From: Allacma fusca
Lineage: Eukaryota > Arthropoda > Collembola > Symphypleona > Sminthuridae
Assembly: GCA_947179485.1 (NCBI GenBank)
Contig: OX359246.1
Location: 52,617,632-52,681,631 of the forward strand
Length of the DNA: 64,000 bases
Reading direction: 5' to 3'
Under the pieces are notes generated by a model. It was not told the origin of the DNA. It did not search any database and worked only from the letters and a program-made list of their open reading frames with translations. Shown here one piece after another: positions 30,800 to 55,564 of this stretch; the first letter of the stretch is position 1; each line of letters begins with the position of its first letter. The position numbers were made by a program, and so were the translations under genes.

Positions 30800-30813
30800 T
30801 GTTACAGATATAT

Positions 30814-30822
30814 TATAAATAG
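30814..30822 (+). promoter_or_regulatory. TATA-box candidate in the LTR
   Basis: TATAAATAG lies 15 bases from the LTR start. If used, U3 would be very short and transcription would start near 30845; this is not proven. Confidence 0.4.
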
Positions 30823-31217
30823 ACTAGAATAAGCATAATCTAAGTCAGCAAATAGTTTGGAAGGTCGTAAGCAGAAGCTACGTGACGCCAAACGCTGACA
30901 TAACATAATTATAAGTAAAGGAAAGGAAATGAGTCAGATTATTTAATAAACAATAAAGATAGGAATAAGATTTAGATTTAAACACGTAGATTAAGTACAA
31001 GTTCTAATCTCGACTTCAAGCAAGCAACATCAAGAGGAGCCGCACCTAGAGTCCATTCCCTCCGGGATGGAGCTCAAAAGGTAGCAAGCGGGGCAACGTG
31101 AAATTCGGAGAATTTCAGGAAGAAGAGATTTAGAATTCAAATTCTATTTTGTGTTAAATGTAAATTGTTCAGTGTAAATTGTATCAGTTCTAGGAACATT
31201 AAATTGGCCCAAAGTTA

Positions 31218-31223
31218 AATAAA
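31218..31223 (+). terminator. polyadenylation signal candidate in the LTR
   Basis: AATAAA at 31218 is duplicated at 59311 in the 3' LTR, where it would act. Earlier AATAAA hexamers at 30945 and 30952 are alternatives, so the R/U5 boundary is not fixed by sequence alone. Confidence 0.4.
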
Positions 31224-31387
31224 AGAACTACACACAGAATTCAATAGTTCCATTTATTCATGAGTTTCACCAACATCGAAACCATAATTCAGGGGAATGG
31301 AACGCCCGAACCTAGGCTACATTGACTATTACCCACACAACATCAATACCCGGGTGATAGCAACGTAACATGATGTTTCTGCCAGGC

Positions 31388-31443
31388 CTTCGGGTTTTAT
31401 TTGGTAAGGACCCGGAGGATCCGTAGGTCGGGGACCTGCGGAT
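31388..31443 (+). promoter_or_regulatory. double hairpin just downstream of the 5' LTR
   Basis: CTTCGGGT (31388-31395) pairs with ACCCGGAG (31410-31417). Two bases on, ATCCGTAGGTC (31419-31429) pairs with GACCTGCGGAT (31433-31443) over 11 bp with one G-U and a GGG loop. The position suggests a role in packaging, dimerisation or priming; this is inference. Confidence 0.6.
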
Positions 31444-32040
31444 GACCCTGTGACAAAAGACCATTCTTTGTAGCAAGTAAGGTCGTTAGTCAAACAAAAT
31501 TCATGGGATGGAAGTATGGGGCTCGATAAGGAGAAGATATTTCATTTCTCTCCAGGGCCACCCGAAACTTCTCGTGAAAGGCAGTTATAACATGCAACAA
31601 TGTTACCTCAAGAAAGAAAATTTGGCCATTATCATCACGCGCGGATTCAAATAACAGTTCAGAAGTCCTAGTGCGGCACTAGAAAAAGAACTATTTTTGT
31701 GGCCACGAATACTATTTTAAGTGCTAGTGAAATTGGGACTCTTTCCAACCGGAAAATTAGGAGAAGAGGACGTCCAATAAGGTAATACTATTTTCTTTAA
31801 GGTTCATGAATTTCATGTTTAGGAGCATATTAATTTTGTAATGTAGTTACGAAGCGTAGCTAATATTCAGGAGTAATTAACCAGAGTTTAGATACAAATC
31901 ATATGTCCAAATTAGAAAATTGCGCATATATGTATATGTATTTTGTGGTTTTCAGAGTACATAGTAGGTGTGTGTGCATTAAAATTTTCACCAAAATTAG
32001 CTTCTTCCAGTAAAATAAGTCTTCTTCTATCTTTTTAGAC

Positions 32041-32068
32041 GCCTAAAGGGCCGGGTCTGAGCGTAGGC
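32041..32068 (+). ncRNA. leader hairpin 1
   Basis: Stem GCCTA/TAGGC encloses the 18-nt loop AAGGGCCGGGTCTGAGCG. It is preceded directly by a polypyrimidine tract ending in AG. Confidence 0.7.
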
Positions 32069-32095
32069 ATAAACAGTGTTCGTATTGTAAAGGGA

Positions 32096-32138
32096 ACTAT
32101 TCCGGCTGAAGTGCCGTTCCTGTGCGCAGTATAATAGT
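32096..32138 (+). ncRNA. leader hairpin 2
   Basis: The outer stem ACTATT/AATAGT and inner stem CTG/CAG enclose AAGTGCCGTTCCTGTGCG, the GTG variant of the shared loop. Confidence 0.6.
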
Positions 32139-32165
32139 AATCTTTCTCTTCGTAAGTTTAAGGTT

Positions 32166-32199
32166 AATTTCAAAAGGGCCGTTTCTGAGCGTTGAAATT
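32166..32199 (+). ncRNA. leader hairpin 3
   Basis: A perfect 8-bp stem AATTTCAA/TTGAAATT encloses AAGGGCCGTTTCTGAGCG. The stem is unrelated in sequence to those of the other copies. Confidence 0.75.
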
Positions 32200-32439
32200 C
32201 TTTTAACTCTTCAAATTACTTTTAAAGTTTTGGGAAACCCCAGGCTAGGGGATAGGAACCCAAAACACAATTAAAAATCTTTCAATTAATTAGGACATTT
32301 TTTTATTAATACCAGACTCTCAAAATTCACTTTCCAAGCTTAGTTTAAAGCAAAAATATGATCTATCTTTCAGTAATTAACTCAAAAATAATTTTTCACT
32401 CTCTTCTTTCTCTACATCTTTTCTCCTTCTAGTATAAGC

Positions 32440-32471
32440 ACATCTGAAGGGCCGGGATTGAGCGCAGATGT
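32440..32471 (+). ncRNA. leader hairpin 4
   Basis: A perfect 7-bp stem ACATCTG/CAGATGT encloses AAGGGCCGGGATTGAGCG. It follows a long pyrimidine tract ending CTTCTAG. Confidence 0.75.
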
Positions 32472-32655
32472 CTGTAAATTCTTTAACCTCCAAATTACGT
32501 AATTAAGAGCCCCATGGCAAGGTGGCAAAACCCAATTAAAACTCTTTCGCTGAAAATTACTTTCTTTACCTGATGTGTAGGTTTACACGGGTAACAATAG
32601 GACCTAGCATAAACTTTTCACAAACTTCTTTTCTTCTTCCATCTTTCCAGTTCCA

Positions 32656-32680
32656 CCAGAAATGCCGTTCTGTGCGCTGG
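32656..32680 (+). ncRNA. leader hairpin 5
   Basis: Stem CCAG/CTGG encloses AAATGCCGTTCTGTGCG, again the GTG-type loop. A pyrimidine tract ending CCAG lies immediately upstream. Confidence 0.55.
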
Positions 32681-32738
32681 GTAATTAGGACATAATTTGT
32701 CATGTTTTTTTTGGCAAATATTAGGACTCTAAAGTTAA

Positions 32739-32764
32739 TCCGGAGGGCCGAATGTGAGCACGGA
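32739..32764 (+). ncRNA. leader hairpin 6
   Basis: Stem TCCG/CGGA encloses GAGGGCCGAATGTGAGCA. Confidence 0.6.
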
Positions 32765-32878
32765 GCATATCAGATTTCAGTTAGTCAGTTTGCAAATCAA
32801 AACCTATATAGCTCAGTTAGAGAGCATAGGTAGATCAGACCATCTAAAGATTATAGTATGTAAGGTGAACAAAATTTT

Positions 32879-32905
32879 CTCGGAGGGCCGAATATGAGCA
32901 CCGAG
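32879..32905 (+). ncRNA. leader hairpin 7
   Basis: Stem CTCGG/CCGAG encloses AGGGCCGAATATGAGCA. Confidence 0.65.
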
Positions 32906-32944
32906 GTGATTAGGACAGTTTAGTTAAGGTTTGAACAAAATTTA

Positions 32945-32976
32945 GTCCAAAGGGCCGAGGTACATTGAGCGTGGAC
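32945..32976 (+). ncRNA. leader hairpin 8
   Basis: Stem GTCCA/TGGAC encloses a longer 22-nt loop that starts AAGGGCCGAGG and ends TTGAGCG; the extra bases lie in the variable centre. Confidence 0.65.
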
Positions 32977-33034
32977 ACATTGGCATAGTACATAAGCATA
33001 CATATAAGAAAATTCTCATCTACGTAGTTTTAGG

Positions 33035-33063
33035 GATTCAAGGGCCGAAATGTGAGCGGAATC
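33035..33063 (+). ncRNA. leader hairpin 9
   Basis: Stem GATTC/GAATC encloses AAGGGCCGAAATGTGAGCG. Confidence 0.65.
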
Positions 33064-33771
33064 ATTGTTGTGTATAAGTTTTAGTACACGTAGAATCCGA
33101 GAGGCTAGGAAGATTAGGAGGAACCTTATGGTTTAGTAGGGTTCGAGTCATTCCAAGCACGGAGGTGATCGGATGGAGTGCCGACAAAAGTACCGATAAG
33201 CCTGTGACCTACTAGAGGTAATCGGAGAGGCTATGATTGACGCACCGATATAGGTATATGTTTGTAATGTGCCCGAGCTAGCGGATAGGTAACAGCAATG
33301 ACTATTACTAGTAAGGAGGTCCATGGGTTAGTGGATAGGATAACAGGGGACATTCCAAAGCACGGATGTTCACTTTAAAATCTATGTATGCGGTTTCCAG
33401 CTATGGCCATACATAGGGACTTTCATACTTATTACTTCTTCCATAGATGACTCATGGTTTTGAGTGCATCATAAGATTAGCCATTCTCGAAGGATTTTGC
33501 TAGAGTAGAGAGAATTGGCATAAGAAACCACAGGCTCATGGCTTTTGAGAGTTGGTTATAGGGATAGGAATTCAGTAAATTCTGGTGCTTTCAGTTTTGC
33601 TGTCTAACAACAGATACAAGCCTTGCTGATGGTAGGATCGGTTCAAGGAAGTTCTTAGGTACGAATTAGGACGCGAAACATATCCTTTGGGACAGAAGGG
33701 TAATTAGTAGCGAGGAATACAGTCCTTATTAATTCTGGGAATCATTACAGGAGTATTTAGGGAATTTAGGC

Positions 33772-33800
33772 AACACCGGCCCGAATGTGAGGAGTGTTGA
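33772..33800 (+). ncRNA. leader hairpin 10 (divergent)
   Basis: Stem CAACAC/GTGTTG encloses CGGCCCGAATGTGAGGA. The loop is the most diverged of the ten, but both conserved halves are recognisable. Confidence 0.55.
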
Positions 33801-33834
33801 TTGACAAAAAGACTGATAAGTTAAGGAGTTAGAC

Positions 33835-34110
33835 GCAACTAGCCATTGCAAATAAGTAAGTTTAAGAGGGTTAAGTTTTAAGGTGAGTAAGTTTAACAGC
33901 TTTAAGTTTTAAGGAGGATAGGATTAAGGAGACTAAATTTAGAGAAGGTTAAGTTTTAAAAGACACTAAGTTTTAAGGGGAATAGGTTTTAAGGAGTCTA
34001 AGTTTAAAGAAAGTAAGGTTACGACAGTTTAGGTTTTAAGGAAGGGTAAGTTTACGAAAGTTTAGGTTGTAAGGAAATTCAGGTGGTAACACCGGGAGAT
34101 ACTCATTGAA
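33835..34110 (+). repeat. C-poor degenerate TTAAGTTTTAAGG tract
   Basis: About a dozen imperfect copies of (T)TAAGTTTTAAGGAG-like words run through this stretch, with very few cytosines. It could be an unstructured landing region upstream of ORF1, or decayed tandem repeats. Confidence 0.6.
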
Positions 34111-34459
34111 AACGATAGGATTACAGAGATTAAGTTTAAGACGATTCACAGCTAAGGTTAGGGACGTTCAGGGATTGAACACGTAGGTTATAAGCACAGA
34201 AAAATTTCTTTTCTAAGTTATCATCACCAATTGGCACAATTATGTTTAACAACTAGGGTTACATAAGCATAGGCATACAAGGCAAAAATTTTAGGAAACG
34301 GTTTAAGTTGAAATTTGGCATAAGTTTTAAGAAGGTTTTCAGGATTGAAATTGACACAAAGAACTCTCACAATCGTCAAAACAAATTCATAAAACCAAAC
34401 TCTACGAAACGCCTTAGCATTTTTCAGCCCATCCAGAAAAAGTTAGGACGTTTACAGGT

Positions 34460-37400
34460 ATGGAACCCGAAAAGAACCAACATCCATCAAGAAGGGAACC
34501 ACCACCTGCACCTTCAATACCATCTCGAAGGACTACGCGATCGGCAGGACCAGTGCCACAGAATGAAACAGGCTTGGAGGAGATCCTCGCCCGTAGGAAA
34601 GAGGAGAGGAAAGCAGCGAAAGCCAAAGCTAATACAGCAACGGCAGGTGTAGACCTCTCTTCAACATCTTCAGCTTCGACATCTACAGTCATGGAAGAAT
34701 CCGGCAGTACAACCCTGGCATTATCTGCACAAAGTCCATCGGGCTCGCAGGCCATGGGGCACGGAGATAATCCTGACAATAATGATGAAAGCACGGATGT
34801 GTTCTTGGACACGGTGTCAACACCTGTAACAGGTACGGCAACCAGTCCTAAACGAACACCAACAGTATCGACAGCACAAACACCAAAGTTTTCAAAAACA
34901 AAGGTGGTGCAAGGACAAAATCTCCATAGACTAGCTATGCAACGAGAATTACGCGACCTCGAGGTAACCAACCTGGAGGGCCAACAGGTCCAACAAGACC
35001 AGGAGGTTGAGGCCACAGGCGAATTCATGCTAAATGCTAGAGGAGACATGGTTTTTGTCAGTCACGATGCTGACCCCACGATCAAGGAAATCCTGTCGCA
35101 ATTCAATCAACCTGAAGAAAGACCAACTAGTAGCGCTGCCATGTCATCATTCGAAATTCTCACGGATCCTGGAAGCAATCATACAAGCGCAGAAGAGGTC
35201 GATCAAGGATTTGCAACTCCAGAAAGTGAGATGGAAGACGTGACCAATGAATCACCCAACAATGTGGTTGTCAGCAACCTGACAAACCCAGTTGGCAACG
35301 GAGACATTCCTCAAGACACGAGTGTACAATCCCAACAGGATGTACAAAGTCAAGGAATGTGCAGCAAAGCTACTGGACAAACAGAACAACAGGTTAATCA
35401 GCAAAGCTCAACGGAATTGGATGATTTGGAGGATTCCAATAGACCAATTGCTATAGCAACAAGTACACCAGAGATTATCCAGCAAGGGAATCTCAGTACA
35501 CACTCATCATTTAGGGATAATTTAGCAATAACTCAATCGGACGAGTCAACCGAACAGAGCGAACAAGGTGACTCACCAGCAGGAGTGCCACGTACTAATA
35601 ACAGTATAGGGAGTGATCGTGACCAGGTCACTACTCAATTAAATCAGCAGTTATCAAACTTAAGCATTAGCGACCACCGTAAATCATCACAGTCGAATAC
35701 TACAGTTTCTCAACAACCAGACATACAACAACTTGTGCGAGATAGGTTCCTATCAAGACCATCTCCAGGATTTTCCAATAGAGGAGATTTAGGCTTTCAA
35801 AGAACACTCAGCCGGGTGTCTGAGTCTACAGAACAGGAAGGCCCAGTCGAGGATCAGTTACCACCGATCAGAGAAGGGCAAGATAACATCCAAAGATTGG
35901 AAGACAATTTCGTACAATTAGTAACAGGTACAGGTGTGATAGTACCAGCGGGTTCGTTTCAACAATTAGTGACCACAGCAGGCTTCCAACGGAACACAGT
36001 GGAAAATTTTCTGGTAGTTCGAGGATTGGAAGGACAGTTGATAGAGGTGTATCACAGGTTAGCTCAAAATCTTTATACAGGTACAGTCCAGTGGACACAT
36101 TTTTTCCTTAGATTAGCTGAAGTCACCCACAGACGGGACAATAACAGAGATCCGAATAGGGAAGAAAGGGAAGTGTTACGTACACGTGCCTTTGAGTACG
36201 GTCGGAACGTCAGGGACAACATTCTCATCCCCACAGACGTCATCCGAAACCTTTTAGAGCACCGGGTATTGTCGTTGAGAAGTCACCAGGCACACCAGGA
36301 TAGCCAGATTTTCTTCAACGATACACCTAGGTATACAACCGTGATACAATCCGGGAGACTTAGTGAAAACCTAGAATTTGGTCAACCACGACAAGAAAGG
36401 CGAGTCAGCGACGAGAGTAGGCCAGGTCCAGAACAAGATCCAGATAACAACGGGACCACCCAACAAAGTGTAATCGACTCCAGCGCTGACGACATCATAA
36501 GCAGGTACCTTAGGTACGACCAAAGAAACCCATCAGTAACACGGAATCCGGTTACGGGTCTATTAGAACCAGCATCTAGATCTACGCTAAGGACCATCTC
36601 AGGTGAGTCCACAGTACAACCCGTTACGTCACGAAGGATTTCACCGGAAAGCTTGAATACCAGCTCTAGTTCAATCAACAAGGCTATAGCCCAAGCAATA
36701 GCCTCAGCGACACTTCAAGCAGGGTTAAGAACCCCTCGAAATCGGAAGTCGAGTAACTCCGATCGTGACCATCTCAGACCAAGTAACCAGGTGACGGACA
36801 GTAACCAGGTAGATTACTCATCACCTAGGTCACAACTTTTCCAGAAATCGGTGAGAAGACACTACAGGGTAAATAGTGCTGAGGAAAACAGCAACTTAAA
36901 TCCCAGAACCAGTCCGCAAGGGACTACGACACGTGAGAGACCAAGCAACAGCCGTCGCGAGACAGCCCTTCAGAAGGGTAGCCCAAAAGCACCCACTACA
37001 TCACCTACAGTCCAGACAGGTAATCAAACACCAGCAGGGAGCTCTACGGCACAACCGAGAGTGACCCCGAGGTCCAGTAATTCCTGTCGCTCAGCACCTA
37101 CAACAGGTGACAGAGGGCAGTCAAGCCGACACAGCAACTCTCACGAGATAACACAGCAAATCAACCCAGTACACATCTCACCAACCAGTCAGAATAGACA
37201 GGTTTCAACGGAAAATACGCCAAGAAATCGACCAACTCAGCCTAACCTACAATTTAGACCACAACCCACCCAAGACGATTTGGAGACACCAACCGAGGAG
37301 GTCGAGACCACCCAAATTGGCAGTACATCGCAGGCTAACGTTAAGAGGGACTTAGCAACAACAAAATTGTACGTCAACACAGATTCCACCCAGGCAAATA

Positions 37401-40400
37401 ACAACGAGCAACTGGTACACCGAGTTTACCAGTCACCGGGAGGTCGAATCTACGTACATCCACCAGTGCATGCGTTACGAGCACCGCCACTTGACGTTAG
37501 TGAGACAGCTTTAAGAACATTGGTGCAAGTAGGGAGACAACTAAGAGAACAGAATCCGTCATTAACTATCGCAAATACCATCAGAAATTCTGACACAGGC
37601 ACTTACTATCAGGCATTTAGACCCCAGGACAGATTTACCGTCTATCAATCACCGAGAGGCTCGTTATATAACAGCCTACCGATAGGACGCACAGGTATAC
37701 ACCGCCACATTTTACGAGGTCGAGACATCCTGCAGCGAGCAACCAACAACGACAGGACCATCATAGAAGGTGGAGAGCTTGTAACAGCACCCCAACCACC
37801 ACCTTCGGAACAGACATCCAGAAGCAACGGGTCTTACGTCCAAGGTGACACCTTAAGGTCACGGACAGCAACACCCGCATCAACAACACGTGCAGCAACG
37901 ACCTTTGCAGTACCAGCTAGACCAACTGGAAGGTTCATAACCAGGTCAGCAAACCGACCAACGACACCGACAGCTCCAGCTGTCCCCGTCAGACCAAATT
38001 CGGCAGTAGCAGGACCATCTCGAGTAACAACAACTCCAACCACAAGTCAAGGTACAGTCAATTGGCTTGACGACTTACAATACGGAGTTAACATTTGGAC
38101 AGGACCGAGTGGCAGAGTATACACCAGCGAGAACGAAGCAACCGAAGACGAGTTAGTACCAAGCAGAATAACAACGAGACAATACTCTAAGATCGCGCGA
38201 CAACAAGATAGATTCAGAAACCAGGGGGTAGAAAACGAAGCGACTTGGACAGGTCAAGTGAGACGTCTGATCTATTATAACAGAAGGGACGGGATCATAC
38301 AACGAAGGTTCAGACCATCTAGAGACTCAAACTTTGAAGCGTTTGCAGCCACAAGAGCTGAACACGAAGAAATTGTTCTGAGTGAACATCCGATATTTAC
38401 CTTCTGGAACATAATCACCCGAAGATCTTTAGATCCAGGGCAGATCTCCAGCTACATCGCACCAAATTTCAGACTTTACCATCGACACATCAGTCTACCG
38501 AACGGCGTTCGCAGACAAAGGGTACCACCAGGCTTCTTGGAAAACATCGAGAACGAACACGACCACCAAGAGGCATTGAATAGACTAATTCACGATCCTA
38601 ACGTGGAAATCTTGAGTGACACATCCAGCGAGGAAGAAGAAGAGCAGGTAGTAGAGAGGGACACTCCAAGACGTGAGAGTGGTCAGCATAACAGTGCACA
38701 GTCTAGTGAAGAGACAGACCACATTTTTATTGGAGTTGACGAAGAGGACTTCATTATTCCAGAAGTACCAGGTCAATTTACGATAAGAATTTCTATAGAC
38801 GACGCCTACGACGCAGCGTTCAGAGCAATTGAAAGAGACGAAGAAATACAAGAGGAAGTCCGATTTGTGGATAATACCGGAGAAACTCACTTCTTCCCAA
38901 GAATCCGACTTCGAGACCTCAGTCCGGAAACTCAAGTTGTACTCACTCAAGTCAGAAAAAGACGTAAACCTTTAAGAGCACGCCGTCAAATCGGAAATAA
39001 CCAACCCAGACCACCAGGCCCAGGACCCAGTGGATCCGGGAGAGGAAATCACTCACGGGGGGCTAACAACAACAACTCCCACATCCAGCGACCATCTCAG
39101 TCAAGGTCAAATCCAGGTCGAGGAGGCTCAAGAGGAGGTAGACACATCGGAAGCAGACAGAGAGCAAGGAGTGACCCCGGAAGTTCCGGAGGAAGTAGCT
39201 CATCATCCAGCTCCAGTAGTAGCAACTCAAGTAACCCTCACGACTTTGAAGCCTTCGACAACTGGAGAAATAGACAAATTGTAAATAGAAATAACATCTT
39301 CAACCAGGTCAACGTTAACATCATCAACCCATACGTACCAATCAACCCAAATCAGGGGATACGTATTGAGGAAGTTGCAGACCAAGAACAGGTACGAATA
39401 ATTCCGAGGAGACATCTGGACGACGACATGACCGCCCTCATGTTTCCCAAAGTAGAATTCAAACCGGGTGTAGATGACCCCGAGACAGCCTTCGCAACAG
39501 CCGAACTTCAGACCAACAGGTTTGGAGGAGATACCATCATAACCAGGATGCAATACGTACAGATCATCTTTGACCCACCCGTTAGGGATTGGATCAGAAA
39601 TTGGATTGCCGAACGAAGACTACATGAGGAACTACCTTACGACACCATTAACTGGGACGAATTCAGAGAGGAATTTCTAATAAGGTACAGTATTACCGAC
39701 CAAATGATACGCACGCTAATGGAAAAGCGAAAGATGAACACTGATGAAGATCCATGCGCATACATAGATGCGAAATTAGCACTAATCAATAGAGTCGACA
39801 GATTTATGCCCGAGCTGGAGAAAATCAGACTCTTACGCGCAGGTTTAACATCCGAATACATAGTTTTCTGCCGAGGATGGACAGCAGGAACTGTAGCAGA
39901 TTTCATAGAGGGAATAAAGCAGTATGATGAAGACCGAAAGACGGACGGCGCGGAATCTATTGAGACAAGATTTGCCAAAGTCCAAGAAATGTTGGAGAAA
40001 TTGACCTCCGGAATGAAACCAGTTCCAGCGGAAACAACTGTAGTAAAAATAGCTGCAGTGAGAGAGCAACAGGACTATCGGAGACCCGAAAATAAACCTA
40101 ATGACCAACGAGGACGAAGTCCAGGTCAAGGAAACTTCAACAACTCACGAAATTCCAGTCCAGGTTACAACAACAATAACAACTACCCGGACAGGGGACG
40201 TAACAATCAAGGTTACGATGACCGAAGGAATTATGGGAACCGCGGTAGATCTCCAACACCTGAGAGATTCTACAATAATCAAGATAGGAGTAGGCCGCAG
40301 TATAGAAATGATGGCAACAACTCCAACAATCAAGGTTACCCTCAGAGGAACCAAAATTTCGGATCTAGACAAAGTCCGAACCGACAATACTATAACAACA

Positions 40401-41026
40401 ACCCTAACAACCAGGGAAATCGTCAGTGGAATGACCAACAGATGAACCAAGGATACAACCAATCCTACAATGGCTACAAAAGCCAAGGATTTAACCAAGC
40501 TCAAGGCTTCATGCCACCTCAAGGGTTCAATCCGAATCAAGGATACCCACCCCAACAGGGTTATGCACCGTTTCAGGGTTATGCACCCACCCAAAGTTAT
40601 GGACCAGCTCAAGGATACGTACCACAGCAAGGATACGGTCAAGGACAACATGCAGGGTACGCCAACCCTGGCATGCAACAAATTCAGGCCAACCCACAAG
40701 GTTATCAGAATCAGGGTTACCAGCCAAACAATAACCAAGGAGGTCAACGACCCCAACAATATAACAACAATAACAACAGGAGTAGAACTAACTCCAGGGA
40801 CCGGAACAGCCAAAGTAATGACAGAAACAACTCCTGGAGGAATCAATCAGACCGTCAGGAGCAGTCACAACCGATACCGGGACAATTGGCACTAGAATCC
40901 ACCCAAACCGACATAAAATGTTTCGGATGTGGAGAGATGGGCCACCTGAGGAGGAATTGCCCACACAAAAGACAGTCTAGCCCATATCCGTCGGGAAACT
41001 CACAGAGGGGGACGCACCCCCAGTAA
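34460..41026 (+). CDS. gag: ORF1: giant Gag-like protein (2,188 aa)
   Basis: Structural protein that should package the element RNA. Residues 1-1650 are mostly Ser/Thr/Gln/Asn-rich and probably disordered. A helical block lies at about 480-620, and a three-times repeated [VI][YW]xxPxGxxY motif at about 988, 1060 and 1211 (VYQSPGGRIY, VYQSPRGSLY, IWTGPSGRVY). Residues about 1655-1840 resemble the Ty3/Gypsy capsid (WDEFREEFLIRYS, MNTDEDPCAYIDAKLALINR, IRLLRAGL). A Gln/Asn/Gly/Tyr-rich prion-like region (repeats such as QGYAPFQGYAPTQSYGPAQG) follows, then a zinc knuckle CFGCGEMGHLRRNC (CX2CX4HX4C) at about 2154. The start ATG has G at -3 and +4. Typical Gypsy Gag is 300-500 aa. Pol follows 20 bases after the stop and its frame is open back to 40981 (-1 frame), so frameshifting or reinitiation are both possible. 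Confidence 0.9.
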   Translation: MEPEKNQHPSRREPPPAPSIPSRRTTRSAGPVPQNETGLEEILARRKEERKAAKAKANTATAGVDLSSTSSASTSTVMEESGSTTLALSAQSPSGSQAMGHGDNPDNNDESTDVFLDTVSTPVTGTATSPKRTPTVSTAQTPKFSKTKVVQGQNLHRLAMQRELRDLEVTNLEGQQVQQDQEVEATGEFMLNARGDMVFVSHDADPTIKEILSQFNQPEERPTSSAAMSSFEILTDPGSNHTSAEEVDQGFATPESEMEDVTNESPNNVVVSNLTNPVGNGDIPQDTSVQSQQDVQSQGMCSKATGQTEQQVNQQSSTELDDLEDSNRPIAIATSTPEIIQQGNLSTHSSFRDNLAITQSDESTEQSEQGDSPAGVPRTNNSIGSDRDQVTTQLNQQLSNLSISDHRKSSQSNTTVSQQPDIQQLVRDRFLSRPSPGFSNRGDLGFQRTLSRVSESTEQEGPVEDQLPPIREGQDNIQRLEDNFVQLVTGTGVIVPAGSFQQLVTTAGFQRNTVENFLVVRGLEGQLIEVYHRLAQNLYTGTVQWTHFFLRLAEVTHRRDNNRDPNREEREVLRTRAFEYGRNVRDNILIPTDVIRNLLEHRVLSLRSHQAHQDSQIFFNDTPRYTTVIQSGRLSENLEFGQPRQERRVSDESRPGPEQDPDNNGTTQQSVIDSSADDIISRYLRYDQRNPSVTRNPVTGLLEPASRSTLRTISGESTVQPVTSRRISPESLNTSSSSINKAIAQAIASATLQAGLRTPRNRKSSNSDRDHLRPSNQVTDSNQVDYSSPRSQLFQKSVRRHYRVNSAEENSNLNPRTSPQGTTTRERPSNSRRETALQKGSPKAPTTSPTVQTGNQTPAGSSTAQPRVTPRSSNSCRSAPTTGDRGQSSRHSNSHEITQQINPVHISPTSQNRQVSTENTPRNRPTQPNLQFRPQPTQDDLETPTEEVETTQIGSTSQANVKRDLATTKLYVNTDSTQANNNEQLVHRVYQSPGGRIYVHPPVHALRAPPLDVSETALRTLVQVGRQLREQNPSLTIANTIRNSDTGTYYQAFRPQDRFTVYQSPRGSLYNSLPIGRTGIHRHILRGRDILQRATNNDRTIIEGGELVTAPQPPPSEQTSRSNGSYVQGDTLRSRTATPASTTRAATTFAVPARPTGRFITRSANRPTTPTAPAVPVRPNSAVAGPSRVTTTPTTSQGTVNWLDDLQYGVNIWTGPSGRVYTSENEATEDELVPSRITTRQYSKIARQQDRFRNQGVENEATWTGQVRRLIYYNRRDGIIQRRFRPSRDSNFEAFAATRAEHEEIVLSEHPIFTFWNIITRRSLDPGQISSYIAPNFRLYHRHISLPNGVRRQRVPPGFLENIENEHDHQEALNRLIHDPNVEILSDTSSEEEEEQVVERDTPRRESGQHNSAQSSEETDHIFIGVDEEDFIIPEVPGQFTIRISIDDAYDAAFRAIERDEEIQEEVRFVDNTGETHFFPRIRLRDLSPETQVVLTQVRKRRKPLRARRQIGNNQPRPPGPGPSGSGRGNHSRGANNNNSHIQRPSQSRSNPGRGGSRGGRHIGSRQRARSDPGSSGGSSSSSSSSSSNSSNPHDFEAFDNWRNRQIVNRNNIFNQVNVNIINPYVPINPNQGIRIEEVADQEQVRIIPRRHLDDDMTALMFPKVEFKPGVDDPETAFATAELQTNRFGGDTIITRMQYVQIIFDPPVRDWIRNWIAERRLHEELPYDTINWDEFREEFLIRYSITDQMIRTLMEKRKMNTDEDPCAYIDAKLALINRVDRFMPELEKIRLLRAGLTSEYIVFCRGWTAGTVADFIEGIKQYDEDRKTDGAESIETRFAKVQEMLEKLTSGMKPVPAETTVVKIAAVREQQDYRRPENKPNDQRGRSPGQGNFNNSRNSSPGYNNNNNYPDRGRNNQGYDDRRNYGNRGRSPTPERFYNNQDRSRPQYRNDGNNSNNQGYPQRNQNFGSRQSPNRQYYNNNPNNQGNRQWNDQQMNQGYNQSYNGYKSQGFNQAQGFMPPQGFNPNQGYPPQQGYAPFQGYAPTQSYGPAQGYVPQQGYGQGQHAGYANPGMQQIQANPQGYQNQGYQPNNNQGGQRPQQYNNNNNRSRTNSRDRNSQSNDRNNSWRNQSDRQEQSQPIPGQLALESTQTDIKCFGCGEMGHLRRNCPHKRQSSPYPSGNSQRGTHPQ

Positions 41027-41046: not shown

Positions 41047-44000
41047 ATGAATGCAATTATAGCAACTAGAGTAGAAAGTCAGTCAAAAGACGACGAAGAA
41101 TTAGAAATTATTGATCTCAACCCATGTCGTTTATCCAACGGCAACAAGTCAACTTTACAAGTACAAATATGCAGCATGATGATACCAGCTTTACTAGATT
41201 CAGGAGCAACAAGATCCTGTATCCAAAGAAACTTAGTACCAAGATGTGCGGAAATAAAGGAAGTTCCAAGCGCTCTGCGAGTAGCAGTAGCAAATGCAGA
41301 ATTGGTAAAGCCAATTTGTCTCACCAAATTCACAATGATGATTGAAGGTGAAAAACTTTTATTCAAAGGTCTAGTGATGGAAACGCTAGAACCACGAATG
41401 ATTATAGGTGAAGATCTTTTATCACGTTACGGAATAACGTTGGATTACAAGAATAATGAAATACGGAGTGACCGATTTCAAACAGTTCCAATGACTAGAG
41501 ATACTCATCTCTATGTCGGGGAGAAAAAGGCCGACATAGAATTTGTCCGGTCAATTTTTTCATTTCATGAAGTCAAAGGACCGAAGAACATGATGTGCAG
41601 GACTCGAAAAGCAGTAACAATACCAGCCTATGGACACATGAAAGTGCCCATACAAATTCCAAAACGTATCAAAAAGGATTTTTATTTACAACCATCAGAA
41701 AAACTTTACACCAGCAAGCGACTCTTAGTAGCCGCAGGTGTAGTACCAAATGAAGAACCTTTTGCATATGTATTTAATCCAGCTCCATGCCCACAGACGA
41801 TGTATGGACGTACAGCTATAGGTCATGCTGAGGAAAATTTTGATCTCATCAAAATCAAACGCAATCAATTACGTGATGCTCATAAAAAGCTCACACAAGA
41901 ACAGCTCGATTGTTTCGACGTCAATGAAGAGCTCGATGAAGAAGGAAGAGCTAAGTACCGAGCATTGTTGACAAGATATCCAGAATGTTTTGCATTTAAC
42001 AAGAGAGATTTGAAAGAACCAGCATGGATTGATCCCATTCGGATCCATACGGGAAATAATCCACCCGTCCAGGCAAAACCTTTCCCTTGCTCACCTATGG
42101 AGCGACAAAAAGTACGAGAAGAAGTACAAAAGATGTTAGATGCAGATATTATTAAGGAAGTGAACGGACCTTACAGTAGTCCACTATTCCTCATCAAAAA
42201 GAAAGACGGAACATTTAGATCAGTTGTGGATTATCGAGCGTTAAACAAGACCATCACAGATCAAGTTTACCCTTTAGCAAGGATAGATGACATACTTATG
42301 CAATTTGGAAAATCTGCAATTTTCGATACTCTTGACATGGAGTCAGGCTTCTTTCAATTATTAATACATGAGGATGATCAAGTCATAACCTCGTTCATCA
42401 CACAGGACGGATTATATGCATTCAAACGACTACCTATGGGAGTCAAGATTGCACCGTCAGCTTTTCAGCGAGCAGCAGATCAAATGCTGGGCTCACTCAA
42501 ATTCAGAGGAGCCATGGTATATTTAGATGATGTAATCTCTTATGGAATTCATCTTTTGGACAAACTAGCATCTCTCGAAGAGTTGATGTTAAGAGCCAGC
42601 AACAAGAACTTTAAGTTCAAACCAAAGAAATGCAAATTCGGATATTTTGAAGTAATTGTTTTAGGATTTAAAGTCTCTAGGGAAGGCACCAGTCCAGATC
42701 CTGCAAAGGTGGACGCTATTAGACATGTGCCAGTACCAAAATCTGAAACGGAAGCAAGAAGATTTTTCGGAATATGCAGTTTCTATAGAAAATACATCAA
42801 GGACTTCGCAAAAATTGCTAGTCCCATCTCACAATCATGGATTGGAAGTAAGGGAAAATCTGAAGGACAAAAACGCATAAGATGCTTCCAATGGAGTGCA
42901 GATGCAACAAATGCCTTCAACATTCTCAAAACCAAATTAATGACACAGCCAGTTCTAGCTCATTTCAACCCAGAGTTGGATTGCATACTGCATACAGATG
43001 CATCAATTTCAGGACTAGGATGCTGTGTACTTCAAGATGATGGAGGAGAACATCCAATAGCGTATGCTTCAAGGACATTAATTCAGTCAGAAAAGAATTA
43101 CTCAGTCACAGAATTAGAACTACCAGCAGTCGTATATGCAGTTCGCAAATTCAGACAATATCTTTATTTGAGAAAATTTTTAATCAGATCAGATCATTTA
43201 GCATTATGCTACCTACGATTACAAAAAGATCCAAACCACCGTATAAGTAAGTTCGTAAATAAACTACAAGAATTTGACTTTCAAGTTACATACAAGAAAG
43301 GAGCACTACATTTGGATGCAGACTTTCTATCCAGAGCTCCATTACCCTATACAAAGGAAGATTTGGAGGATACAGAGGACCGAGTGATCGAATTTGAACC
43401 AGACCCGGTCAAGGAACACAAAATTGCTTTGGAAGAGCAAAAACAAATCCCTCAGGGGAATATAATAATGCCACCACCAGCGTGTGCAGCCAGCCTTACG
43501 ACCAGGGAAAGCTATAAGGGAAAATATTGGACGGATGACGAAAGTCAATCCTCAGACGAAGAAGAACCCATAATCCCACAGCGGCAAAATCCATGGTCAG
43601 GGAGATTGAAAGGCCAACCTAGACGTAAAGTCAAATCACAAGTGGAAATTTTAGTACCTCAACCGAATTTGGAGGAAACGGATTGGGAGAACCATACAAT
43701 GAGCGTAAAGAGCCGTGTAAATGAAGTAACACACAGCTACTCAGCGCTCAAAGAATGGAAATTATCCGTAGATGACATCATTACAATCCACGAATTTCGG
43801 GAGGATGACCCACAAGAGGATGAAAACACCTGGAAATACACGAATGAGTATATCTACGAGAAAAATCTCAAACTAATACAAGATATAGAGCTTCACAATG
43901 CAACAATAAATGATTTAGACATGAAAGAATTTTTATCGCCAAAGAGAGCTCAAGTTCAAAATGAACATGAAGATTTTGACAGAAATACTATCACTGACAT

Positions 44001-47000
44001 TGGAATGGGGACTGATTGGTCTCCTACTCCAAAGTCAACGACAGCAATAACGTCACAAAGTCCAGCCAATGGGAAGGCTGACATTGATTCACCAAAATCC
44101 CTAGGGCAGATGACACGGAGTACAATGGAATTCACAACAATGGATGGGGCAGGTGAGGCTGAAACAAAAGCTGTACATCTACCACCAGCCATAATTGTAG
44201 ACTCCGATACGGAAGTCCATGATCAAGCCTTGAAGGATCAGGAAACAGCGGATCTGGTGAGCCAGGCAGCTGAGACTACACAAAAGAAGTCCTCAACTTT
44301 CCCGCCCACCCATCCCGCCAGTCCTAAAGAGGCCAAGAAATTGGTACTCACGGATGAGGATAGGAACGTCCAAAAGGAATGCGACCAACCGACACGGAAA
44401 CAGGAAACGTTCAGTGTGGAAAATCACATTCCATCCGGACACGATCCCACAGACGAGGAGAAATGGTTTGCATTTGAAGAGACTTGGAGGAATCCAACGT
44501 CAGCAAAAGGAGATGAATGGAAGCTCAAACAGGAAGTTATTTCGCAATTAAAGACATACACTGCACAATCTGCCAGGAAGACTGATCAAGTTCCTGATGC
44601 AGAAAGTCCAGGATATGTTAACAATCCGGATCTTGATACCCCACAGCGGATCAAGGCGATGAAGATTTCCAGAGATGTGGATGAATGGATGAAAAATATC
44701 CAACGAAGATCTGCAGCATGCGAGTCGGAGGAAAACAAAAACCCTCCGCCGTCGCATACGTACATATCCACAGAGAATCCAGTAAATGAAAATAATTACT
44801 CTCTACTGGCAACCACAGTAGAAGAGCTGAGGAAAAATATCCGGGAAGGTGAAATTAAATTCACCGATGGAAGATCATGGAAGATTCAACCTCTGAAAGG
44901 GCAGGGTGTTGTGACAAGTAAAAAGACGTCACATTCACTATGTCTTTCACAGGATGAAGACCAAAGGAATAAAGACGCTCAGAAAACTGAGGACATGTCA
45001 TTAAATAGAGCAATAAAATTTGTTCCAGGAGCTCACGCACTACAGGGGTGCGAAGGGAGCAAAGATACTTTTTCCACACACAAACCTGTGTGTAGGATAC
45101 TTGAAGATGAAGAGCAAGTTACTATGTTAGAGGAACATAACATGCAGGAGATGCAAAGGGACGACCCAGATTGTTTATTCATCATGGACAAAATAAAGAT
45201 GCGGCATACGTTAAATTGGAAGGACAAAGAAAAGTATAGCCGATATGAAATTGATGAAGAAGGGATTCTTACTATAGTACATAAAGATGGACGTAAGTTA
45301 TACGTACCCCGAGTACTTAGAAATTTCCTACTATCAAAAGCTCATGATGGGATCCTATGCGGAGGACATTTAGGATTCCAGAAAACTCTTCATAGACTCA
45401 ACAAAAATTATTTTTGGAGAAAAATGAACGTCTCAGTAGCAAAATATGTCATGTCATGTGAAAGTTGCCAAGCAGCTAAATCCATGAGAACGAAACCAGC
45501 AGGATTACTTCATCCAATCAGGATAGAAAATGTAGGAGATGCATTATGTATTGATCTCATTGGACCCATGCAAATTAGCATAAAAGGGAATAAGTACATT
45601 ATAATCGCACAGGATTATGTTTCAAAGTTCGTGATCGCAGAAGCAATTCCAGATAAAACTGCTGACAGGATAGCAGAGTTTTTGCTTCACAAAGTAGTTT
45701 TAAAATATGGACTGTTTAAAAACTTGCTGAGTGACGGAGGATCCGAATTCAGAGCGGAAATCACTCAAGCATTACTTCGCAGATTAGGCATGAACCATTC
45801 TACATCTACAGCATTAAGACATAATAGTGTTGGACAAATAGAAAGAATGGTCCAGACTATAAGCACTATGCTGAGTCATTATACTCAAAAAGAGCAAGCA
45901 CTATGGTGCAGTTGTTTACCGTTTCTAATAAACGCTTACAATTGCAGTCACCATGACGTGACCAAAGAAACTCCTTATTTTATGATGTTTAGGCGACAAC
46001 CCATATATGATTTTAACTTACAACTGTGTTTAAGCAGCGTCGACACAAATTTTATGAGTGCTGAGGAAGCCACTACTAGAATAGAAAAAGCTATTGCTAA
46101 GATAAGGGAACGTCAGGACTACAGTAAGGATTGGTATGATAGGAAAAGAAGGTTCGTTAAATTCAACATCGGAGACACAGTGCGAGTCTTTACACCGACC
46201 AGGATAGTTGGAAAGAGCGAACGCTTTCTTCATCCTTACAAAGGACCCTTTGTAGTCATAGAAGTTTTAGCCAAAGACAATTATATCATTCAAGACCTTA
46301 GGAATTCTAAAAAGAGACAGAAAGTCCATGTGGAAAGGCTTAAGAAGTGCCTGCAGCGAGAACACATTGAGGACGAGTATAGTTACGATTTAGATTCCGA
46401 TATAGTGGAATTGGTGACAAAACGAAATTGGAACAAGTGTGGAAAAGTTACAGTGAGTCAGCCACGGTCAATTCTTAAGAATTCGACCACTTCAGATAAC
46501 AGTTCAACGACGAGCAAGAAGGTGACTTTTAAAGTTCAACCTGCTCAAACCGAAGAAATAACTAGAGAATTTTCATCCGAAAATCACTCAGACAGTTCAA
46601 GTGACCAAACTCAGCCAGTACAACAGAGAGGAGAATTTTGTGACAAAAATTACTCACACTCTCAAATTACCCCAAGTGAAGGAGGAAGATCAAACCAGGG
46701 ATCATATCAACAAAAAGGTACTACTAAGCAGTCAAGTGCACAAGTAAGAAAATTTTCATCAGAAAATCATTCAGATAACCGGGAATTTTTAGATAAAAAT
46801 TACCCATATTTCACTCGCTCGAAAGTAAATGAACACTCTAGAGGAAATCAGGGACGAGATAAGGGGATTGAAACAACAGAGGAATTTAGTCCAAATCAAA
46901 ATTTGGAAGTACGCAGCTCAGGAAGAGTACATCAAACAGAGAATCGCAGCTTTAGAACTGCTAATTCAGGAAACAAAACCTCAAACGTCAAGTTTCTGCC

Positions 47001-48222
47001 CACAAGTGGAGAAATCACAAGACGAGGTTCCACCAGAGTAACTGATGACACATACAAAGAGAGAATTAATCCTAATCATCAAGGGATTACAAGCCCAATT
47101 AATCAAGGCAAAGGAGAACGAAATTCGTCTCCAACAAAGAATTTTACATCAGATTGCAGAACAGGAGGAAGTCCTGAGCAAACTGAAACAACTCGAGGGA
47201 GATCACAAAGCAACCCTTCAGGAAACTCAGAAAGCCAAAGAAGATATTTCGGATTTAATAAACCAGCTGAAAACAGCTCAGGTGTAACATCAGAAAGTGA
47301 GGAAGAAACTCAACCACTTATTGACGAAAGTGACTTTAAGACACTTAAGAAATTAAGTAGTTCAGGGATAAGTCCAACAGAATTTGATGTGGACGACAGC
47401 AGTGAGTGTAGAAAGACAAATTTTTACAATTCGGGATCAGAACCGAGAACTAATCAACCGCCTACGACAGAGAGAGGGAGACCTGGACAAATTAAAACAG
47501 GAAATCAAGGACCTTCAGAAGCGACTCCACGAGTTGAGGTGCCTTGGCCCTCAGTAGAGGCGGATATTTCGACACAATTGCTTCACTCAGATGAGCAAAA
47601 GGCCTTGGAAGAGCCCCCCTTTGTGGAACTCAACACCAAGCCCACCCAGCGAAGCTCAGAGACAAACACTGCAAAGCCTACAAGCGCAAGGCAGTCGGAT
47701 CAGAGAAGCAATAGCACGAGTGGAAAGAGAGATAGAACAAACCGAGAGAGTCAAGAACACTCTGAAAAATCAAATTCGAGCAGCCAACAGCTTAGCCAAC
47801 AATTCAACCAACCCTCGGAACGAGAAGTCCTTGTAGAAAATTCTACAGAAGAGGACGAAGTGTTCCAGGAAGTTCAAGAGGAAGAAACCGGACAAGACTC
47901 TGTAGATACGCATACAGAAGTCATTAATACACCTGTAGAATTTTCTACAGAAGAGGACAGGTCATTGGATGTCATCACGAAAGACAATCCCAGAAGGCCT
48001 GAGAGAATTAGAACGAATACGTCAGATCACCGAGAGACATTCAGCGATCCTCAAAACCCGACGAGTGCAAATCCAACAGGAACTTCAACAAGTTCAGGAG
48101 GAAATTCGGGAGTTAAAGAAGCAGGCGAAACACCTCAAGGAGAAAGCGCTGAAGACACCGGAGAAAGTAGACGATACCCAACTCGTACCCGAAAAAGGAC
48201 GAGAAGATTTGGATCAGTCTGA
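41047..48222 (+). CDS. pol: ORF2: Pol polyprotein (protease, RT, RNase H, integrase) with long extensions
   Basis: Encodes the enzymes for reverse transcription and integration. The aspartic protease is at about 49 (LLDSGATRSCI). RT spans about 345-570 with YLDD at 492. RNase H spans about 640-770 (TDAS with Asp 651, SDH, LDADFLSR). The integrase zinc-binding HHCC is at about 1433-1465 (HDGILCGGHLGF, CESCQAAK), its catalytic triad is Asp 1503, Asp 1563 and Glu 1599 (DX35E), and a GPF module (HPYKGPFVVIEVL) is near 1735. All catalytic residues are present. Two additions are unusual: a roughly 650-aa acidic, low-complexity spacer between RNase H and integrase, and a roughly 630-aa Ser/Asn/Thr/Gln-rich tail with repeated FSSENHSD and DKNYxxxxR motifs. 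The tail is overprinted in the +1 frame by small ORFs. At 2,391 aa it is about twice the usual Gypsy Pol. Confidence 0.95.
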   Translation: MNAIIATRVESQSKDDEELEIIDLNPCRLSNGNKSTLQVQICSMMIPALLDSGATRSCIQRNLVPRCAEIKEVPSALRVAVANAELVKPICLTKFTMMIEGEKLLFKGLVMETLEPRMIIGEDLLSRYGITLDYKNNEIRSDRFQTVPMTRDTHLYVGEKKADIEFVRSIFSFHEVKGPKNMMCRTRKAVTIPAYGHMKVPIQIPKRIKKDFYLQPSEKLYTSKRLLVAAGVVPNEEPFAYVFNPAPCPQTMYGRTAIGHAEENFDLIKIKRNQLRDAHKKLTQEQLDCFDVNEELDEEGRAKYRALLTRYPECFAFNKRDLKEPAWIDPIRIHTGNNPPVQAKPFPCSPMERQKVREEVQKMLDADIIKEVNGPYSSPLFLIKKKDGTFRSVVDYRALNKTITDQVYPLARIDDILMQFGKSAIFDTLDMESGFFQLLIHEDDQVITSFITQDGLYAFKRLPMGVKIAPSAFQRAADQMLGSLKFRGAMVYLDDVISYGIHLLDKLASLEELMLRASNKNFKFKPKKCKFGYFEVIVLGFKVSREGTSPDPAKVDAIRHVPVPKSETEARRFFGICSFYRKYIKDFAKIASPISQSWIGSKGKSEGQKRIRCFQWSADATNAFNILKTKLMTQPVLAHFNPELDCILHTDASISGLGCCVLQDDGGEHPIAYASRTLIQSEKNYSVTELELPAVVYAVRKFRQYLYLRKFLIRSDHLALCYLRLQKDPNHRISKFVNKLQEFDFQVTYKKGALHLDADFLSRAPLPYTKEDLEDTEDRVIEFEPDPVKEHKIALEEQKQIPQGNIIMPPPACAASLTTRESYKGKYWTDDESQSSDEEEPIIPQRQNPWSGRLKGQPRRKVKSQVEILVPQPNLEETDWENHTMSVKSRVNEVTHSYSALKEWKLSVDDIITIHEFREDDPQEDENTWKYTNEYIYEKNLKLIQDIELHNATINDLDMKEFLSPKRAQVQNEHEDFDRNTITDIGMGTDWSPTPKSTTAITSQSPANGKADIDSPKSLGQMTRSTMEFTTMDGAGEAETKAVHLPPAIIVDSDTEVHDQALKDQETADLVSQAAETTQKKSSTFPPTHPASPKEAKKLVLTDEDRNVQKECDQPTRKQETFSVENHIPSGHDPTDEEKWFAFEETWRNPTSAKGDEWKLKQEVISQLKTYTAQSARKTDQVPDAESPGYVNNPDLDTPQRIKAMKISRDVDEWMKNIQRRSAACESEENKNPPPSHTYISTENPVNENNYSLLATTVEELRKNIREGEIKFTDGRSWKIQPLKGQGVVTSKKTSHSLCLSQDEDQRNKDAQKTEDMSLNRAIKFVPGAHALQGCEGSKDTFSTHKPVCRILEDEEQVTMLEEHNMQEMQRDDPDCLFIMDKIKMRHTLNWKDKEKYSRYEIDEEGILTIVHKDGRKLYVPRVLRNFLLSKAHDGILCGGHLGFQKTLHRLNKNYFWRKMNVSVAKYVMSCESCQAAKSMRTKPAGLLHPIRIENVGDALCIDLIGPMQISIKGNKYIIIAQDYVSKFVIAEAIPDKTADRIAEFLLHKVVLKYGLFKNLLSDGGSEFRAEITQALLRRLGMNHSTSTALRHNSVGQIERMVQTISTMLSHYTQKEQALWCSCLPFLINAYNCSHHDVTKETPYFMMFRRQPIYDFNLQLCLSSVDTNFMSAEEATTRIEKAIAKIRERQDYSKDWYDRKRRFVKFNIGDTVRVFTPTRIVGKSERFLHPYKGPFVVIEVLAKDNYIIQDLRNSKKRQKVHVERLKKCLQREHIEDEYSYDLDSDIVELVTKRNWNKCGKVTVSQPRSILKNSTTSDNSSTTSKKVTFKVQPAQTEEITREFSSENHSDSSSDQTQPVQQRGEFCDKNYSHSQITPSEGGRSNQGSYQQKGTTKQSSAQVRKFSSENHSDNREFLDKNYPYFTRSKVNEHSRGNQGRDKGIETTEEFSPNQNLEVRSSGRVHQTENRSFRTANSGNKTSNVKFLPTSGEITRRGSTRVTDDTYKERINPNHQGITSPINQGKGERNSSPTKNFTSDCRTGGSPEQTETTRGRSQSNPSGNSESQRRYFGFNKPAENSSGVTSESEEETQPLIDESDFKTLKKLSSSGISPTEFDVDDSSECRKTNFYNSGSEPRTNQPPTTERGRPGQIKTGNQGPSEATPRVEVPWPSVEADISTQLLHSDEQKALEEPPFVELNTKPTQRSSETNTAKPTSARQSDQRSNSTSGKRDRTNRESQEHSEKSNSSSQQLSQQFNQPSEREVLVENSTEEDEVFQEVQEEETGQDSVDTHTEVINTPVEFSTEEDRSLDVITKDNPRRPERIRTNTSDHRETFSDPQNPTSANPTGTSTSSGGNSGVKEAGETPQGESAEDTGESRRYPTRTRKRTRRFGSV
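46829..47041 (+). CDS. overprinted small ORF a (+1 frame of pol), coiled-coil-like
   Basis: 70 codons in the +1 frame relative to pol. The product has Leu/Ile at heptad-like spacing with Glu, Gln and Lys between (EEIRDEIRGLKQQRNLVQIK, QRIAALELLIQE). Its TAA is followed four bases later by the ATG of the next ORF in the same frame. Whether it is translated is unknown; purine-rich pol sequence read out of frame could also give such composition. Confidence 0.35.
   Translation: MNTLEEIRDEIRGLKQQRNLVQIKIWKYAAQEEYIKQRIAALELLIQETKPQTSSFCPQVEKSQDEVPPE
47045..47287 (+). CDS. overprinted small ORF b (+1 frame of pol), coiled coil
   Basis: 80 codons, almost entirely a predicted-looking coiled coil (LILIIKGLQAQLIKAKENEI, LSKLKQLEGDHKATLQ, ISDLINQL). 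The main pol frame here is Ser/Asn/Thr-rich and featureless, the opposite of what is expected if the pol frame alone were selected. It uses the same +1 frame as its neighbours. Confidence 0.4.
   Translation: MTHTKRELILIIKGLQAQLIKAKENEIRLQQRILHQIAEQEEVLSKLKQLEGDHKATLQETQKAKEDISDLINQLKTAQV
47387..47557 (+). CDS. overprinted small ORF c (+1 frame of pol), coiled coil, 56 aa
   Basis: ATG at 47387, TAG at 47555-47557, same +1 frame. The product reads VERQIFTIRDQNRELINRLR and LDKLKQEIKDLQKRLHELR, clear heptads over about 45 residues. It is short, and falls between ORFs b and d. Confidence 0.35.
   Translation: MWTTAVSVERQIFTIRDQNRELINRLRQREGDLDKLKQEIKDLQKRLHELRCLGPQ
47591..47836 (+). CDS. overprinted small ORF d (+1 frame of pol)
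   Basis: 81 codons; the frame is open from 47558. A Pro/Ser-rich start is followed by a helical, coiled-coil-like half (LQSLQAQGSRIREAIARVER, EIEQTERVKNTLKNQI). Same frame as ORFs a-c and e. Confidence 0.35.
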   Translation: MSKRPWKSPPLWNSTPSPPSEAQRQTLQSLQAQGSRIREAIARVEREIEQTERVKNTLKNQIRAANSLANNSTNPRNEKSL

Positions 48223-55504: not shown

Positions 55505-55564
55505 TTGAGACTACTCAGGGATAAGGAACAGTTACACAAAAAGTTTTTTTTTCATATAGTGAAA

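Follow-up and report, generated by a model that had tools for sequence, protein, structure and literature searches.

The packaging signals of retroviruses lie between the LTR and gag, and the leader of Drosophila gypsy holds the Su(Hw) array. To our knowledge, there is little definition of how animal LTR retrotransposons choose their RNA, export it and pack it, and with an RNA of 28 kb a giant element makes the question more acute. The array of hairpins described here is likewise placed between the LTR and gag. Among the systems nearest to it, the available descriptions give a purine loop as a Gag site in MMTV (PMC8096270), the reading of a motif in many copies by a single coat protein as a principle of RNA viruses (PMC6281560), and the use of 12 clustered gypsy copies in insulator reporters (PMC9917439).

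The window is the whole stretch of 64 kb of Allacma fusca DNA which was analysed, and its positions 30800-59463 are occupied by a gypsy-type LTR element of 28.7 kb with an internal region of 27.5 kb, surrounded by a 57-bp AT-rich satellite (Table 1). The LTRs and the order protease, RT, RNase H and integrase are those of a gypsy-type LTR retrotransposon. The best RT matches in the similarity search were RT-RNase H-integrase polyproteins of Cordylochernes, and the scan of viral contigs found no relatives of Pol among them. The CCHC knuckle of the Gag-like ORF comes after a long low-complexity C-terminal part. No Pfam match was obtained for ORF3, and the remaining ORFs of the element were without a Pfam family above the cut-off. 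The stop of ORF3 is a TAG, after which an open frame of 667 codons runs on in the same frame (48422-54988), and a 261-aa ORF at 55505-56290, Env-like by look, begins with hydrophobic residues and has a single strong membrane segment. On the minus strand of the window, 9551-12887 holds pieces of a non-LTR retrotransposon, among them endonuclease and RT.

Table 1. Positions in the 64-kb window of the parts of the element, its ten leader hairpins and the sequence preceding the first of them.
Feature	Position	Strand	Description
5' LTR	30800..31370	+	571 bp; 99.8% identity to 58893-59463 (blastn)
5' leader	31371..34459	+	LTR-to-gag interval, 3,089 nt, 40 ATGs; all ten hairpins inside
3'-splice-site-like sequence TATCTTTTTAG	32017..32038	+	ends 2 nt before hairpin 1; putative splice use
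Hairpin 1	32041..32068	+	stem GCCTA/TAGGC; core AAGG-GCCG-GGTC-TG-A-GC-G
Hairpin 2	32105..32130	+	stem GCTG/CAGT; core is the T/T variant
Hairpin 3	32166..32199	+	stem AATTTCAA/TTGAAATT
Hairpin 4	32440..32471	+	stem ACATCTG/CAGATGT; CCTTCTAG upstream
Hairpin 5	32656..32680	+	stem CCAG/CTGG; core is the T/T variant; pyrimidine tract and CCAG upstream
Hairpin 6	32739..32764	+	stem TCCG/CGGA; purine mismatch swapped to G.A
Hairpin 7	32878..32906	+	stem TCTCGG/CCGAGG; swapped purines
Hairpin 8	32945..32976	+	stem GTCCA/TGGAC; apical loop 8 nt
Hairpin 9	33035..33063	+	stem GATTC/GAATC; inside the sole leader stretch still aligned to family C by blastn
Hairpin 10	33771..33799	+	stem CAACAC/GTGTTG; inner helix CCCG/UG-GG, not GCCG/UG-GC
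Gag-like ORF	34460..41026	+	2188 aa; single C-terminal CCHC knuckle; candidate hairpin binder
Pol ORF	41047..48222	+	2391 aa; protease, RT, RNase H, integrase
ORF3	48422..52984	+	1520 aa; Arg/Ser-rich stretch; second candidate hairpin binder
3' LTR	58893..59463	+	571 bp; blastn partner of the 5' LTR

The leaders of related elements were grouped as family A (the window and 19 loci), A' (L057-L059 and L063), B (L051, L054, L055, L060 and L062) and C (L052, L053, L056, L064 and L065). In long blastn blocks the A and B leaders share 67-75% identity, and the A leader was aligned by blastn with three C loci over only about 60 bp, around hairpin 9; the Gag of A and the open frame of the C locus L052 are 30% identical over 753 aligned positions. 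Directly 3' of the LTR, the B leaders L054 and L055 carry TGGTGTTTCTGTCAGG and family A carries TGATGTTTCTGCCAGG (31371-31386 of the window). The former is a usual start of a primer-binding site. ARAGORN called no tRNA genes in the element of the window; by eye, 32803-32860 resembles half of a tRNA, with an A-box-like TAGCTCAG..TAGAGAG and a part like an anticodon arm, and it is kept in families A and B.

The first-pass annotation, made from the letters of the window, had claimed ten hairpins with different complementary stems around one shared loop. All ten sites were found on the plus strand at 32041-33799, within the leader, and the stems it named are present at sites 1, 3, 4, 8, 9 and 10 as given in Table 1 and at site 7 as CTCGG/CCGAG. 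From outside inward, each hairpin has an outer stem of 4-8 bp of free sequence, a purine-purine mismatch with a three-base bulge, a short and fixed inner helix GCCG/UG-GC which is interrupted by one bulged A or U, and an apical loop of 3-8 nt in the window and 2-10 nt in the relatives. The claim stands, with more behind it than was first put forward; its single loop has to be given up, as GCCG and UG-GC can pair as a second short helix. At site 10 the first pair of this inner helix shows a compensatory change, being C-G in families A and A' (window, L057-L059, L063) and G-C in the B leaders L055 and L062. The loop sequence quoted in the annotation is departed from at site 10 and, by the swapped purines, at sites 6 and 7. 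A possible eleventh site at 33210-33262 was rejected, since folding did not give the module and the covariance model does not list it.

The anatomy was tabulated for 107 distinct hairpins chosen for at least three stem pairs; seven of 302 cores were excluded by this rule, which by itself makes the three inner stem positions fully paired in the table. Among the seven excluded cores, the one at site 5 of L054 is a true site whose stem is broken, and the remaining six have the look of chance matches. Each of the three innermost outer-stem pairs is formed by four or five pair types. The purine-purine mismatch is A with G in 63, A with A in 25 and G with A in 16 of the 104 hairpins with a four-base 5' side. 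The compositions of the bulges are partly set by the core finder, because it restricts those positions (A/C, G/A, G/T; for the single bulge A/T) and can place the stem one base off, and they are to be read with this in mind: after the mismatch the 5' side reads A, a purine and G or T before the inner helix, and the single bulge is A in 99 and T in 8 of the 107. At the first inner pair 105 hairpins have G-C and two have C-G, with the finder missing site 10 of family B; at the last inner pair 102 have G.U.

The occurrence of the hairpin was profiled with a core-only search, in which no stem was required and no covariance model was used. In the window leader it gave 10 sense cores, all with a stem, and no antisense core; in the window outside the leader there were 2 sense and 3 antisense cores, none of them with a stem. 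In 34 element leaders, 295 of the 302 sense cores had at least three stem pairs, against 26 antisense cores with a single stem, and 20 dinucleotide shuffles of the same leaders gave on average 9.0 cores, 1.0 with a stem. The genome searched was an assembly of 392.7 Mb in 91 contigs, 386 Mb of it in six contigs of 48-82 Mb, and in this genome the exact core pattern had 635 matches and the reversed pattern 0; the initial exact pattern matched 9 of the 10 window sites and missed site 10. On contig C8, matches of family-B type at 35458370, 35465687 and 35473004 are spaced by 7,317 bases, as tandem copies of a piece of the element would be. A mitochondrial COX1 of this assembly has 93% identity to that of Sminthuridae and at most 87% to the other springtails among the 120 matches listed, which makes the host a globular springtail. 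The chromosome-size contigs C12, C5 and C8 also carry several near-complete matches to COX1, apparently mitochondrial inserts.

A covariance model was built from the ten sites, as the first-pass annotation had suggested. These sites score E 2.7e-8 to 1.4e-4, a match by construction, and on both strands of the 64 kb nothing beyond them was better than E 0.96, the remainder of the window serving as the test. The hairpin is carried by the leaders of relatives in A', B and C and is thus present in three element families, with 9 to 12 hairpins per B leader and two in each of the five C leaders (E up to 0.01). The core is identical in A and C despite their diverged Gags and leaders. Rfam 15 gave 0 covariance-model matches at gathering score in the window, and at E up to 10 the leader had two weak antisense matches, far below gathering scores; the earlier remark that no known RNA family has this motif agrees with that result.

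The pairing of the outer stem was compared with shuffled partners. For the ten window sites, 87.9% of stem cells are paired vs 68.8% when partners are shuffled among sites, and the covariation score is 0.496 vs 0.150, neither value being reached in 500 shuffles; two weaker measures of covariation were reached by 1 and 11 of 500. A second set of 75 model matches at nine loci (62 distinct hairpins) has 90.7% of cells paired vs 70.8% shuffled and 20-48% when slid, with a covariation score of 0.531 vs 0.162, and is less clear for changes on both sides (28 of 500 shuffles as high) and for further pair types (182 of 500). Pair counts from such structure-fitted model alignments lean toward the structure, and the core-only search is model-free. 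In 113 distinct cores an average of 4.48 of the five inner stem pairs are formed, vs 2.73 with the 3' sides redealt (maximum 3.04 in 2000 shuffles), with a slight advantage to the observed stems, which could pick between two registers before shuffling.

Because the shuffles ignore relatedness, matching sites were also compared directly, with representatives picked by hand and over five inner pairs. Pairing is preserved by 12 distinct double changes, of which one distinguishes two duplicated hairpins of L060, and, as G.U, by 6 single changes; the sole other change is at an outer position already unpaired in the window. At site 9 the window has the stem GATTC/GAATC, A' and B have GATTG/CAATC, and C has GTTGG/CCAAC; at site 4 the window has CATCTG/CAGATG, where most other A copies have CATTTG/CAAATG. 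Compensatory changes thus preserve pairing across relatives, as in a structured RNA under selection. The hairpin is very probably a real RNA module with conserved pairing, and the earlier view that structure was conserved and not sequence is borne out by the shuffle tests, the compensatory changes and the restriction to the sense strand. Thermodynamic stability was dropped as a support, since the folding-energy z-scores of the ten isolated hairpins (-0.89 to +1.18) are near zero and no better than those of shuffled sequence. Only 74 of 110 distinct hairpins have an outer stem with a mean pair probability above 0.5; here the counts alone were used, and the mean energy gap was set aside as spoiled, perhaps by targets which the energy model forbids.

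Substitution rates, as substitutions per compared pair, were taken from 20 A copies, the window (L001) and L002-L020, which are the best 20 of 40 scored matches, a choice that favours intact copies. The inner helix changes at 0.25% (3' side) and 0.55% (5' side) and the flanks between hairpins at 4.2%, and the helix is therefore about ten times more conserved. The outer stem changes at 3.8%, i.e. at the flank rate, yet is still paired, and the apical loop at 13.6%, about three times the flank rate. The bulged positions are not below the flank rate (5' bulge side 5.8%, single bulged A or U 8.6%, 3' purine of the mismatch 14.5%), and those bulge and mismatch positions with raised rates alternate between two bases. 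Gap differences of 7.4% on the 5' helix side belong to the loop, as surplus loop letters in longer copies had been assigned to the last window position ahead of them. These 20 copies have 199 model matches, where ten each would be 200; L011 is without a match at site 10. Other decay is seen at site 7 of L018, where the stem is down to 3 pairs, and at site 1 of L063, with TGAGT for TGAGC.

At site 2, a 4-nt T/T block is found in 11 of the 20 copies and a G/A block in 9, of which 8 have an 8-nt loop, and this exchange of whole blocks accounts for the correlated G-to-T change which the first-pass annotation had seen in the two loop halves. A partial correlation holds and a strict coupling does not: the combinations are G/A 89, T/A 10, T/T 7 and G/T 1 among the 107 distinct hairpins, and strict coupling was rejected as covariation with T/A commoner than T/T and whole apical blocks differing between copies at one site. 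Two genome-wide patterns agree with a coupling which is not strict, with some chance background (191 matches, 100 of them listed, vs 18 for the reversed pattern; 79 vs 19).

The ten hairpins are most likely copies of one RNA recognition module in the element transcript, and would offer the same docking site many times over to a protein in charge of the element RNA; the repeated binding site proposed earlier is still the most natural reading of the sequence. They have the look of a protein site on RNA because selection keeps one strand, one inner helix, and the pairing but not the sequence of the outer stem. The protein may read the inner helix with its bulges, the outer stem would merely present this helix, and the apical loop would not be read; that the bulges are read is a guess, since their substitution rates are no lower than those of the flanks and they alternate between two bases. 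The element's own Gag is the first candidate binder because of its position and its CCHC knuckle, and is the likeliest of the proteins considered. The Ty3 nucleocapsid is described as also having a single CCHC finger (PMC4974528). The next candidates are ORF3, with its Arg/Ser-rich stretch, and host proteins.

Several leader sites bound by Gag could mark the full-length 28-kb RNA for packaging, and binding at hairpins 1, 4 and 5 could also mask the neighbouring 3'-splice-site-like sequences, to the advantage of unspliced RNA. To Gag-directed packaging of full-length RNA through the array we give a rough probability of 0.4, which makes it the leading reading and a tentative one. The rates of the bulged positions and the folding results given above count against it, as do the following observations. 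Family C retains just 2 hairpins in 5 of 5 leaders; and in family A the best 5'-splice-site-like sequence (33883) is 3' of all ten hairpins, so that a transcript spliced there would retain them, which is poor for selecting unspliced RNA.

A control of splicing or nuclear export, which the first-pass annotation had not named, is the main rival, though a doubtful reading. In it, some hairpins would sit at leader 3' splice sites, and a protein bound to them, either a Rev-like protein encoded by the element or a host export receptor as for the CTE, would block splicing and export the unspliced RNA; the Arg/Ser-rich stretch in ORF3 would suit it. It draws on the three best 3'-splice-site-like sequences of the window leader, which end at 32650, 32432 and 32038, i.e. 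2-8 nt before hairpins 5, 4 and 1 (3 of 3; P about 0.0007 if the places were random, with limits set post hoc). The top three lie before hairpins in 3 of 3 cases also in L058 of A' (0.0015) and L060 of B (0.002), in 2 of 3 in L055 of B (0.065; top five 4 of 5, 0.002), and in 1 of 3 in L054 of B (0.37; top five 3 of 5, 0.02) and in each of L052 and L056 of C (0.12), but the distance limits were set after looking and the leaders are related, so that these tests are not independent. Leaders of A, B and C alike have TATCTTTTTAG ahead of hairpin 1, with the same 11 letters in 9 of 12 other leaders compared from A', B and C and a one-letter difference in L058, L054 and L065, and it is kept there although blastn fails to align A with C at this place. 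L055 and L060 of family B each hold the unit of CCTTCTAG and hairpin twice. In the three B leaders tested a 5' splice site of full consensus occurs 255-275 nt upstream of hairpin 1, but the window leader and the two C leaders tested have no 8/9 or 9/9 site within 300 nt before it, and hairpins 6 to 10 are without a 3'-splice-site-like neighbour. This control and packaging by Gag can hold together.

A translation module, which the first-pass annotation had named beside packaging by Gag, is improbable: the hairpins would recruit a host or element factor for internal ribosome entry or for bypass of the leader. With 40 ATGs in the 3,089 nt before gag, 27 of them after 32038, ribosomes must on this reading enter internally or bypass the leader, and pyrimidine tracts adjoin several hairpins; against it, family C carries only 2 hairpins and the last hairpin ends 660 nt upstream of the gag ATG. 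Lower still stands a site for a host RNA-binding protein, which the element would exploit or which would restrain the element. The sequence gives no sign that the binder is encoded by the element, and the best 20 copies keep nearly all their sites (199 vs 200), but among the 100 listed of the 635 exact core matches nearly all are, by eye, clustered or of the single-match family-C type, with one single B-type match.

A DNA-binding array like the Su(Hw) sites, which would be in the same place of the same type of element, is very improbable and is largely refuted by the covariation: no duplex site of fixed sequence was found, the flanks are free but covarying, the orientation is single, and the spacer between the two halves varies from 2 to 10 nt. 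The small self-cleaving ribozyme which the first-pass annotation had also entertained, with a fixed core with bulges and a free outer stem in its favour, is hardly credible, given very few fixed unpaired bases, a hypervariable apical loop, no Rfam ribozyme match, and the destruction of the genome RNA that ten leader cuts would bring.

The preferred reading, a docking array for Gag, can be widened to a proposal which we hold to be rather unlikely as a whole: a giant LTR element would use a new RNA recognition module, in up to twelve copies per leader, as a packaging array which nucleates its own protein on a 28-kb RNA and covers the leader splice sites. In a literature search of titles and abstract openings we found no description of a covarying or tandem hairpin array in LTR-retrotransposon leaders, nor of such an array in giant elements of springtails. 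The module is compact, with a clear sequence-structure rule and many natural variants in three families, and its binder can thus be sought directly. The pattern of rates, with a fixed inner helix, a drifting but paired outer stem and a hypervariable loop, tells beforehand which parts to mutate.

Among known systems, the Su(Hw) array of Drosophila gypsy is alike in having repeated sites in a gypsy leader and unlike in that its sites are DNA and these are covarying RNA hairpins. The Burro elements of planarians are also giant gypsy-type LTR elements with extra coding capacity, given as up to 25 kb where the internal region here is 27.5 kb, and the parts of that account drawn on here mention no leader hairpin array (PMC6431247). 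The MPMV CTE and the HIV RRE share the character of structured cis-acting retroelement RNA, and the CTE has internal loops as well; it is described as a single extended stem-loop, 150-175 nt in length and with two such loops, whereas here there are ten separate short hairpins, three of them beside 3'-splice-site-like sequences (PMC7551171). The dispersed packaging signals of RNA viruses, from the available summary, resemble the array in their many sequence-structure motifs with a common recognition motif, and differ in that the motifs here are confined to the leader of the window's element, with a putative contact to a coat protein (PMC6281560). Retroviral psi hairpins, as in the description of the MMTV purine loop, share the leader region, the exposed purines and the hairpin context (PMC8096270), but here ten near-identical modules stand in one leader, each with a fixed inner helix with bulges that is a candidate for binding.
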